Origin: Tannerella forsythia
GTDB taxonomy: Bacteria; Bacteroidota; Bacteroidia; Bacteroidales; Tannerellaceae
Assembly: GCF_003860135.1 (NCBI RefSeq)
Contig: NZ_RQYN01000001.1
Span: 62,001-126,000 of the forward strand
Length of the DNA stretch: 64,000 nt
Direction of reading: 5' to 3'
Part shown: positions 49,498 to 62,490 of the stretch, piece after piece
Position numbering within the stretch: position 1 is the first letter of the stretch
Layout of the letters: every line of letters begins with the position of its first letter
Notes under the pieces: model-generated
Database searches by the model: none
The model's input: the letters and a program-made list of their open reading frames with translations, nothing else
What the model was told of the DNA's origin: nothing
Made by a program: the position numbers and the translations under genes

Positions 49498-49597
49498 TGC
49501 TTTATTTTTTTCTTTTTGTTTTATCCATCAAAGGACGCTAAGAGCTACACTTTTCCTCTTGTAATGGAGGGAAAAACTCTATGCGTCTTTTTCTACG

Positions 49598-49681
49598 TAC
49601 GCAGGATGAGATTTGAACTCACACACCGTTGCCGGCACTACCCCCTCAAAGTAGCGTGTCTACCAATTCCACCACCTGCGC
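49598..49681 (-). tRNA. tRNA-Leu (GAG)
   Basis: 84 nt. The acceptor stem pairs GCGCAGG with CCTGCGT; the anticodon stem CTACT/GGTAG encloses the loop TTGAGGG, anticodon GAG. A long variable arm follows and the T-loop reads GTTCAAATC. CCA is not encoded. Confidence 0.92.
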
Positions 49682-49693
49682 ATATTGAAGGGG

Positions 49694-49775
49694 TGCCCAG
49701 AACAGGACTCGAACCTGCATGCCTCTCGACACACGCACCTGAAACGTGCGCGTCTACCAATTCCGCCACCTGGGC
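49694..49775 (-). tRNA. tRNA-Leu (CAG)
   Basis: 82 nt. Acceptor GCCCAGG/TCTGGGC-type pairing, anticodon stem CACGT/GCGTG and loop TTCAGGT, anticodon CAG. The variable arm is long, as in class II tRNAs. Twelve bases upstream of tRNA-Leu(GAG) in the same transcript. CCA is not encoded. Confidence 0.92.
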
Positions 49776-49894
49776 TTACTTCAATTTTTCTTCAAGGCGA
49801 TCGCTTCTCGCTCTTCGTTCATCTTTTATTAAGGAAAGTTCTCGTATCTTGGCTTTACAGCAACAAAAAAGGGAGAAGCCTCCTTTATATAAAG

Positions 49895-49967
49895 AGCGGA
49901 AGACGGAACTCGAATCCGCGACCCCAACCTTGGCAAGGTTGTGCTCTACCAACTGAGCTACTTCCGC
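49895..49967 (-). tRNA. tRNA-Gly (GCC)
   Basis: 73 nt. GCGGAAG/CTTCCGC acceptor, D-loop AGTTGGTAGA, anticodon arm CAACC-TTGCCAA-GGTTG, anticodon GCC. The discriminator is T and CCA is not encoded. It is the first complete tRNA of the operon and is preceded in the transcript by three copies of its own 5' half. Confidence 0.95.
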
Positions 49968-50042
49968 ATTGCTTTTTTTTTGCTTTTGCAGTCTGCCGGT
50001 TTTGCTTTTACCTTGCCAAGGTTGGATGTTTTATCTTCTTGG

Positions 50043-50297
50043 GGCAAGGTTGTGCTCTACCAACTGAGCTACTTCCGCATTGCTTTTTTTGCTTTTGCAG
50101 TCTGCCAGTTTTGCTTTTACCTTGCCAAGGTTGGATATTTTATCTTCTTGGGGCAAGGTTGTGCTCTACCAACTGAGCTACTTCCGCATTGCTTTTTTTT
50201 GCTTTTGCAGTCTGCTGGTTTTGCTTTTACCTTGCCAAGGTTGTAACCTATTATCTTTTGGGGCAAGGTTGTGCTCTACCAACTGAGCTACTTCCGC
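50043..50297 (-). repeat. three tandem tRNA-Gly 5' halves with spacer
   Basis: 36-nt copies of the tRNA-Gly 5' half (acceptor strand, D-arm, anticodon 5' strand, ending at the last anticodon base) lie at 50043-50078, 50152-50187 and 50262-50297, period 109-111 bp counting from the intact tRNA. Spacers of 73-75 bp are nearly identical and contain CAACCTTGGCAAGGT, an anticodon-arm look-alike with GGC in place of GCC. No acceptor 3' strand or T-arm is present, so these cannot be tRNAs. Confidence 0.93.
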
Positions 50298-50331
50298 ATT
50301 ATTCGCTAAGTATTTTTATGATTAGCGGGTG

Positions 50332-50361
50332 CAAAGATAGAGTCTTTTTTTGATATCGCAA
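50332..50361 (-). promoter_or_regulatory. promoter of the tRNA-Gly/Leu/Leu operon
   Basis: On the minus strand TTG (50359-50361), 19 bp, TATCTTTG (50332-50339). It places the transcript start about 30 nt before the first tRNA half at 50297, so the halves are transcribed. Confidence 0.7.
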
Positions 50362-50439
50362 GCGTTCTGTCATTATTTTTTTTGAAATACGTGCGGGAAT
50401 AATGGCAGAACGCCGCTTATCAAACGCTTTTGTAGCCGA

Positions 50440-51210
50440 TTATTTTTTTAAACCGGTTGCTTCCAGCCACACATCGGCCATCAGTTGACGACCCGGTAAG
50501 TCCGGGTGTACACCATCAGCAGACCAGTAACGGGCGGGAGCTAACTTCATCGCTGCATCGAAGGCAGACTGATAGGGCACAAAGACTGCTCCGAATTCAT
50601 TGGCCAATTTTTTTAGTGACTTCCGATACGCGTCGAACATGGGGAACCATTTCGGTTCGTCGATCGCCGATCCGCCACGAAGAGCAAAAGGTTCGCCCAG
50701 AATAAGTTGGGTGTGGGGTAGTTTCTCCTTCGTATAATTCAGCAGATCGCGTAGGTCGTTTTCATACGTTTCTGCCGTTCCCTTGTATCCACTCGAAAGC
50801 GTATGCCAGAAATCGTTCACGCCAATCAGGATGCTCAGGATATCGGGCATAAACGTCAGGGTGTCGATTTCCCAACGGCTACGTAACTGGTAGACTTTAT
50901 TTCCACTGATGCCGCGATTGTATATTTTGACTTGCTTGTCGGCATACGTCTTGAGCAGTTGTGTCGCCGCCAACAGCGGATAACCGGAGCCTATCATATC
51001 GAACGTGTTGCAATCGACGGCTTCCCGATTTCGTCCACAGTCGGTGATTGAATCGCCTTGAAAAAGAATCACGGCATTGTTCTTGATCGTGATCTTGGGA
51101 GCCGAAACGCCATTTTGTTCGTTGACTACGGCCTTGGCCAATTCAGGGAGAGACAACATTCCTAATCCGGCCAATGTTGTGTTTTTCAAAAAATCTCGTC
51201 TTGTCTTCAT
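50440..51210 (-). CDS. exported SGNH/GDSL hydrolase
   Basis: 256 residues from the start at 51210 (MKTRRDFLKNTTLAGLGMLS), a twin-arginine-like signal. The SGNH blocks are LFQGDSITDCGRN (Ser nucleophile), GISGNKV (Gly), LIGVNDFW (Asn) and DGVHPDLPGRQLMA (Asp and His). Enzymes of this type deacylate sugars or lipids in the periplasm. A longer start at 51276 would add a charged, non-signal stretch. The gene stands alone; the substrate is unknown. Confidence 0.88.
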   Translation of the reverse strand: MKTRRDFLKNTTLAGLGMLSLPELAKAVVNEQNGVSAPKITIKNNAVILFQGDSITDCGRNREAVDCNTFDMIGSGYPLLAATQLLKTYADKQVKIYNRGISGNKVYQLRSRWEIDTLTFMPDILSILIGVNDFWHTLSSGYKGTAETYENDLRDLLNYTKEKLPHTQLILGEPFALRGGSAIDEPKWFPMFDAYRKSLKKLANEFGAVFVPYQSAFDAAMKLAPARYWSADGVHPDLPGRQLMADVWLEATGLKK

Positions 51211-62245: not shown

Positions 62246-62263
62246 CAACGATTTTTTTTCGTG

Positions 62264-62336
62264 AGCGGAAGACGGGACTCGAACCCGCGACCCCAACCTT
62301 GGCAAGGTTGTGCTCTACCAACTGAGCTACTTCCGC
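62264..62336 (-). tRNA. tRNA-Gly (GCC), second copy
   Basis: 73 nt, nearly identical to the copy at 49895; anticodon arm CAACC-TTGCCAA-GGTTG, anticodon GCC, discriminator T. The T-stem differs at a few bases (GGGTTCGAGTCCC). It is preceded in the transcript by one tRNA-Gly 5' half. Confidence 0.95.
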
Positions 62337-62411
62337 GTTGTTTTCTTTTGCTTTTGCAGTCTCTGCCGGTGTTGCTTTTTTCTTGCCAAGGTTGGAACCT
62401 TTGATCTTTTG

Positions 62412-62447
62412 GGCAAGGTTGTGCTCTACCAACTGAGCTACTTTCGC
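62412..62447 (-). repeat. single tRNA-Gly 5' half before the second tRNA-Gly
   Basis: 36 nt matching the tRNA-Gly 5' half up to the last anticodon base, with one change in the acceptor strand (GCGAAAG for GCGGAAG). The 75-bp spacer to the intact tRNA (62337-62411) is related to the spacers at 50 kb: it keeps CCAACCTTGGCAAG and CTGCAAAAGCAAAA. The half begins about ten bases after the predicted transcript start. Confidence 0.9.
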
Positions 62448-62459
62448 GAAATGCGGTTG

Positions 62460-62490
62460 CAAAGATAGATGAAATTTTTGTTCTGCCAAA
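62460..62490 (-). promoter_or_regulatory. promoter of the tRNA-Gly/Leu(TAA) operon
   Basis: On the minus strand TTTG (62487-62490), 19 bp, TATCTTTG (62460-62467); it fits the consensus exactly. Confidence 0.78.

Follow-up and report, generated by a model that had tools for sequence, protein, structure and literature searches.

The locus and its features

The window (the whole stretch of 64,000 nucleotides that was analysed) carries a tRNA-Gly(GCC) gene on its minus strand at 49894-49967 and, between this gene and a promoter, three copies of the 5' half of the same tRNA. The original prediction had described three 36-nt halves on the strand of the tRNA, repeated at a period of about 110 bp downstream of a good promoter, and this description held in every part: the halves are identical to the tRNA in 36 of 36 positions and all end at C36, the measured period is 109-110 bp, and the promoter is of the Bacteroidetes type, with TTGC at 50358-50361 and TATCTTTG at 50332-50339. 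Judged from the letters, three exact 36-mers cannot have arisen by chance. A second tRNA-Gly(GCC) gene of the window (62263-62336), which had been overlooked, also has one half, and at both loci each half is accompanied by a 13-nt strip, called ANTI hereafter, which is the reverse complement of tRNA bases 31-43. The features are as follows, each with its basis in brackets.

50358-50361, minus strand: promoter -33 box TTGC, locus 1 (sequence and the TAnnTTTG survey of related arrays)
50332-50339, minus strand: promoter -7 box TATCTTTG, locus 1 (sequence and the TAnnTTTG survey of related arrays)
50262-50297, minus strand: half 1, tRNA-Gly bases 1-36 (sequence)
50231-50243, minus strand: ANTI 1, CAACCUUGGCAAG, antisense to tRNA bases 31-43 (sequence and ANTI/tRNA tracking)
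50188-50230, minus strand: linker 1, with partial D-arm complementarity (predicted fold of unit 1, linker statistics)
50152-50187, minus strand: half 2 (sequence)
50121-50133, minus strand: ANTI 2 (sequence)
50079-50120, minus strand: linker 2 (sequence)
50043-50078, minus strand: half 3 (sequence)
50012-50024, minus strand: ANTI 3 (sequence)
49968-50011, minus strand: linker 3, with partial D-arm complementarity (sequence; unit-fold z of -3.8, L001)
49894-49967, minus strand: tRNA-Gly(GCC) gene, locus 1 (tRNA call)
62460-62467, minus strand: -7 box TATCTTTG, locus 2 (sequence)
62412-62447, minus strand: half of locus 2, 35/36 identical to its own tRNA (sequence)
62382-62394, minus strand: ANTI of locus 2 (sequence)
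62263-62336, minus strand: tRNA-Gly(GCC) gene, locus 2 (tRNA call)

Downstream of the tRNA-Gly gene of locus 1 lie tRNA-Leu(CAG), tRNA-Leu(GAG) and then two small ORFs which, named by eye, resemble ribosomal proteins L28 and L33. On the other side, a long imperfect inverted repeat (CGTTCTGCCATTATT...AATAATGACAGAACG, minus strand) occupies 50362-50412 between an SGNH-hydrolase-like gene and the tRNA promoter, and is probably the terminator of that gene; a sub-threshold Rfam microRNA match falls on the same repeat. The remaining tRNA-Gly matches in the genome score lower, and two of these (L003 and L004), which are the TCC and CCC isoacceptors by eye, were inspected and are without a half/ANTI unit.

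Anatomy of the unit

The order within a unit is half (bases 1-36), a gap of 14-24 nt, the 13-nt ANTI (xxACCUUGGCAAG) and a linker of 7-85 nt; gap and linker vary in length between units, and the spacers from one half to the next half or to the tRNA are short, about 40-110 nt. CUUGCC in the half is complementary to GGCAAG within ANTI. The spacer had been proposed to mimic an anticodon arm with GGC, and the GGC motif is indeed present, but the stronger property is that the strip is antisense to the anticodon arm of the tRNA itself. ANTI is nearly palindromic, so that it may alternatively be taken for bases 27-39 with C35 replaced by G.

Distribution and copy number in Bacteroidales

A reference set was retrieved from a genome collection with a pattern that fixed ACCTTGCCC and ACCTTGGCAAG. 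At least 120 stretches were listed, and among the matches listed those also holding the tRNA half came, where titles were given, from Bacteroidales such as Tannerella (T. forsythia), Alistipes, Prevotella, Odoribacter, Proteiniphilum, Petrimonas, Paludibacter and Bacteroides, many of the carriers living in gut, mouth and rumen. At every locus where the contig extends far enough, the units precede tRNA-Gly. About 12 of 36 further Tannerella genomes searched with BLAST had a unit before tRNA-Gly, and other tRNA-Gly genes begin directly behind the promoter. Of 295 genomes sampled evenly from the order, five contain units whose score clearly exceeds that of the tRNA; a phylum-wide sample gave no units outside the genome of the window. 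The element is thus widespread yet patchy, and its absence from most sampled genomes of the order, and from some tRNA-Gly(GCC) genes within the same genus, means that it is dispensable.

Arrays in related genomes hold from one to at least seven units. Copy number changes at the orthologous locus itself, a point that the original prediction had raised: three units in the window, two in T. forsythia and one in G025 (a sister species). The array of at least seven units (genome G266) is divided over two contigs, at the end of C22 (L256) and the start of C23 (L257); unit arrays evidently break short-read assemblies, and both copy number and presence are therefore probably underestimated. The boundary at C36, on which the original prediction had laid weight, recurs across genera and dozens of species with no random end points, an outcome that favours the prediction. 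The retrieved DNA also holds 216 tRNA genes that are not Gly-GCC, and none of them shows the arrangement, with the exception of Gly genes standing behind Gly-GCC units.

Several candidates were discarded. Flagged Leu and Arg pairs turned out to be complete neighbouring tRNAs rather than arrays of halves, 41-nt matches of the covariance model R1 were complete tRNA-Gly genes, and array-like clusters of R1 matches were tandem full-length tRNA-Gly genes. Other Bacteroidales (L241-L255) have tandem complete tRNA-Gly(GCC) genes in the place where half units would stand. At a second T. forsythia locus (L188, upstream of 902) two units are followed by a degenerate half (GCGAAAGTAACTCAGTTTACGG) without ANTI and then by the tRNA, and in a Tannerella MAG (L017, the same locus as L061 and L190; gene start 1601) the gene behind the unit has the anticodon TCC (G34T) and half and ANTI keep GCC, which is either a genuine substitution or a mistake of the assembly.

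Of 101 related arrays, 86 have the motif TAnnTTTG no more than 110 nt before their first half, compared with 6 control windows of equal size; inside arrays it occurs only five times in total. Since a promoter motif stands before the first half and is rare within the arrays, the halves are very probably co-transcribed with tRNA-Gly.

Sequence constraint on the half and ANTI

The invariance of the ACCTTGCCC and ACCTTGGCAAG bases is partly a product of the search pattern that fixed them, and the argument for conservation was for this reason built on pattern-free features. One of these concerns the first two bases of ANTI: they are the same as bases 27-28 of the tRNA in 76 of 82 loci, across three tRNA types; 5000 shuffles, which take no account of relatedness, gave a mean of 28.7 and a maximum of 42. 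Two more loci retain a G-U pair between ANTI and the tRNA, and within Tannerella alone all three tRNA types occur, each with the matching ANTI. In eight loci bases 27-31 of the half differ from the tRNA, and in seven of these ANTI follows the tRNA. The exception, L026, was found without the pattern: here the half has changed to UUUUGCC and ANTI to GGCAAAG, which preserves the hairpin between them, and CCGAA/UUCGG adjoins (by eye).

Neighbouring copies (38 pairs, with up to three mismatches allowed per core part when units were detected) differ by 7.0% in the gap, 5.3% in the acceptor strand, 3.7% in the D-arm, 1.0% in bases 26-36 of the half and 0.8% in ANTI, which puts the divergence of the gap at about 7 times that of the last two. 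Both the CUUGCC:GGCAAG pairing and the pairing of ANTI with tRNA bases 31-43 are kept in nearly all units, with one compensated change (L026) and a few wobbles, and are broken in two or three units (L015, L141). RNAalifold found no covariation in A2, as expected for a set fixed by the search pattern. The D-stem is largely preserved in the 18 halves with the greatest divergence, often in a shifted register and sometimes with a new D-loop, and the acceptor strand is gone in several. In L071, L130, L145, L059 and L140 the D-loop of the half has been replaced (AGGAAAGTA, AGGATGGGTA) and the D-stem kept.

Predicted folding of unit and tRNA

All fold figures are equilibrium predictions that leave out kinetics, tertiary contacts and modifications. 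With the stretch from half to ANTI folded alone, the proposed hairpin CUUGCC/GGCAAG was recovered with a mean pair probability of 0.86 over 82 related loci. When unit and tRNA are folded together, the predicted partner of ANTI becomes bases 31-43 of the tRNA, and in most of the folds shown the acceptor strand of the half pairs with the 3' acceptor strand of the tRNA. The native anticodon stem accordingly falls to a mean probability of 0.01 with the unit (82 loci), compared with 0.61 when only the 13 ANTI bases are shuffled and 0.70 in a comparison set of 99 element-less loci. The joint fold of unit and tRNA lies on average 10.6 kcal/mol below the summed parts, and the units of the window fold better than their own shuffles (z of -3.8 and -4.8). 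Pairing of the linker with the D-arm exceeds that of shuffles (mean z -0.83, sem 0.17, compared with -0.13 for a control arm) and is weak and uneven. The minimum free energy state of the whole precursor is non-native, and productive folding of the tRNA must consequently depend on kinetics.

A putative fold switch and its alternatives

At the level of sequence, the comparisons above establish which parts make up the unit, that these are conserved and that ANTI tracks the tRNA. I tentatively favour, at somewhat short of an even chance, the reading that the units form a conserved, structured and tandemly repeatable leader RNA of tRNA-Gly(GCC) transcripts in Bacteroidales which would act in cis as a switch on tRNA-Gly maturation. 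Three regions would take part: the 5' half (region 1), ANTI with its linker, which is antisense to the tRNA (region 2), and the tRNA (region 3). Region 2 is predicted to pair either with region 1 through CUUGCC/GGCAAG, which would form first during transcription, or with bases 31-43 of region 3, the two being mutually exclusive. With regions 1 and 2 paired, the tRNA would be free to fold and be matured by RNase P; with regions 2 and 3 paired, the acceptor strand of the half would capture the tRNA at its 3' end, and the transcript would be trapped in a false fold that may be unprocessable. In this manner the leader would set the output of tRNA-Gly, perhaps through feedback from tRNA-Gly itself. 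A three-region switch is the simplest account because one strip has two conserved partners.

Alternatively, the arrays may be a non-functional tandem duplication, homogenised by recombination with the adjacent tRNA gene. The patchy presence, the copy number that varies at the orthologous locus among sister species and the halves that mostly match the acceptor sequence of their own tRNA all agree with this, and gene conversion from the tRNA, which had also been suggested, could account for the last of these. It fails, however, for ANTI, which tracks the tRNA despite a differing centre base that gene conversion would erase. Pure decay or recombination likewise does not explain the pattern of divergence between copies, with its fast gap and slow half 26-36 and ANTI, or the compensation in L026, and the gap length class and the boundary are constant across families. 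The duplication is therefore unlikely, and the earlier suggestion of decayed tRNA copies is disfavoured on the same grounds: the slowest-changing parts are half 26-36 and ANTI, ANTI tracks the tRNA, and the C36 boundary is constant. Units acting in trans are also rather unlikely. Here, half and ANTI would be cut from the precursor and bind tRNA-Gly or its 3' halves through ANTI, more copies making more sponge; RNA fragments from pre-tRNA spacers work as sponges in E. coli, ANTI is a closer match to the tRNA than the half is, and the copies are tandem and variable in number (at least seven in G266). However, target bases 39-43 are paired in the mature tRNA, the linker of 7-85 nt offers no common processing site, and the units always stand in cis to tRNA-Gly, which a trans-acting RNA would not need.

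The exact end of the half at C36 could also point to a defence against tRNA-cutting enzymes, with the units serving as decoys for anticodon nucleases or supplying a replacement 5' half and a splint with which cut tRNA-Gly is repaired; ANTI could in principle bridge base 36 of a half and tRNA base 37 in this way. This is improbable, given that the anticodon bases are hidden within the half:ANTI hairpin and that halves with altered D-loops (the five loci named above) or lost acceptor strands are unlike a usable spare half. The original prediction had likened the exact cut to the work of anticodon nucleases, and no sign of their involvement emerged. The same altered halves disfavour an intron or splicing reading (half, spacer, duplicate half and 3' half). 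Least credible, and very improbable, is a relic of mobile-DNA integration at the anticodon palindrome. Integrases use palindromes such as the tRNA anticodon arm, which is nearly perfect here, and the target is present as tandem direct repeats, but viral contigs gave no genuine match (four matches were chance hits in coding-like DNA) no locus has an element between half and tRNA, and the spacers are short, at about 40-110 nt. Decay, phage relic and tRNA intron thus all fit worse than the fold switch.

Relation to known systems

The Rfam scan returned only three tRNAs above threshold and no family that matches the unit. A T-box leader is comparable in that GGC in the leader RNA is codon-like and complementary to the anticodon of tRNA-Gly. 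The unit differs in that it precedes the tRNA gene itself and not synthetase or amino-acid genes, in that its complement covers the anticodon loop and the 3' stem, and in lacking a terminator/antiterminator; no covariance match to T-box (RF00230) was found at E<=10 in 49500-50450, and no terminator-like site on either strand in 49500-50500. The rtT or tyrT repeats of Escherichia coli are likewise tandem repeats holding a tRNA fragment within the transcript of that tRNA gene, but their position is downstream of the gene and the fragment is the 3' end of tRNA-Tyr, while the Bacteroidales unit lies upstream, holds the whole 5' half to C36 and an antisense motif, and recurs across the order. Attenuators of the trp type share the three regions of which the middle one pairs with either neighbour; here there is no terminator, the regulated object would be the tRNA fold, and region 1 copies part of region 3. 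The leader of the E. coli thrS operator also copies part of a tRNA, and this mimicry acts on the synthetase mRNA through protein binding; the Bacteroidales copy stands before a tRNA gene, with an antisense strip attached to it. The nearest system is thus rtT by anatomy and the alternative-pairing attenuator by logic, and the unit has the defining features of neither.

A literature search that reached few subscription journals gave no description of the half/ANTI unit; neither the main text of the candidate-RNA papers PMC2864571 and PMC8040213 nor the B. thetaiotaomicron map (PMC7366714) describes it. It is conceivable, and put forward still more cautiously than the switch, that the unit represents a new class of cis-regulatory RNA: a leader with a sense 5' half and an antisense anticodon-arm strip, in which true and false tRNA folds would compete and copy number would be the dial.

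Hardly anything is known of RNA structure controlling individual tRNA genes in bacteria. A conserved leader in common gut and oral Bacteroidales, assembled from a half of the tRNA and an antisense strip and missing from Rfam, would, if true, be a new route to set tRNA supply, and would offer a test of regulation by pre-tRNA folding. In these Bacteroidales, 5' halves of tRNA-Gly may be encoded rather than cut, which calls for caution in annotation pipelines and small-RNA studies.
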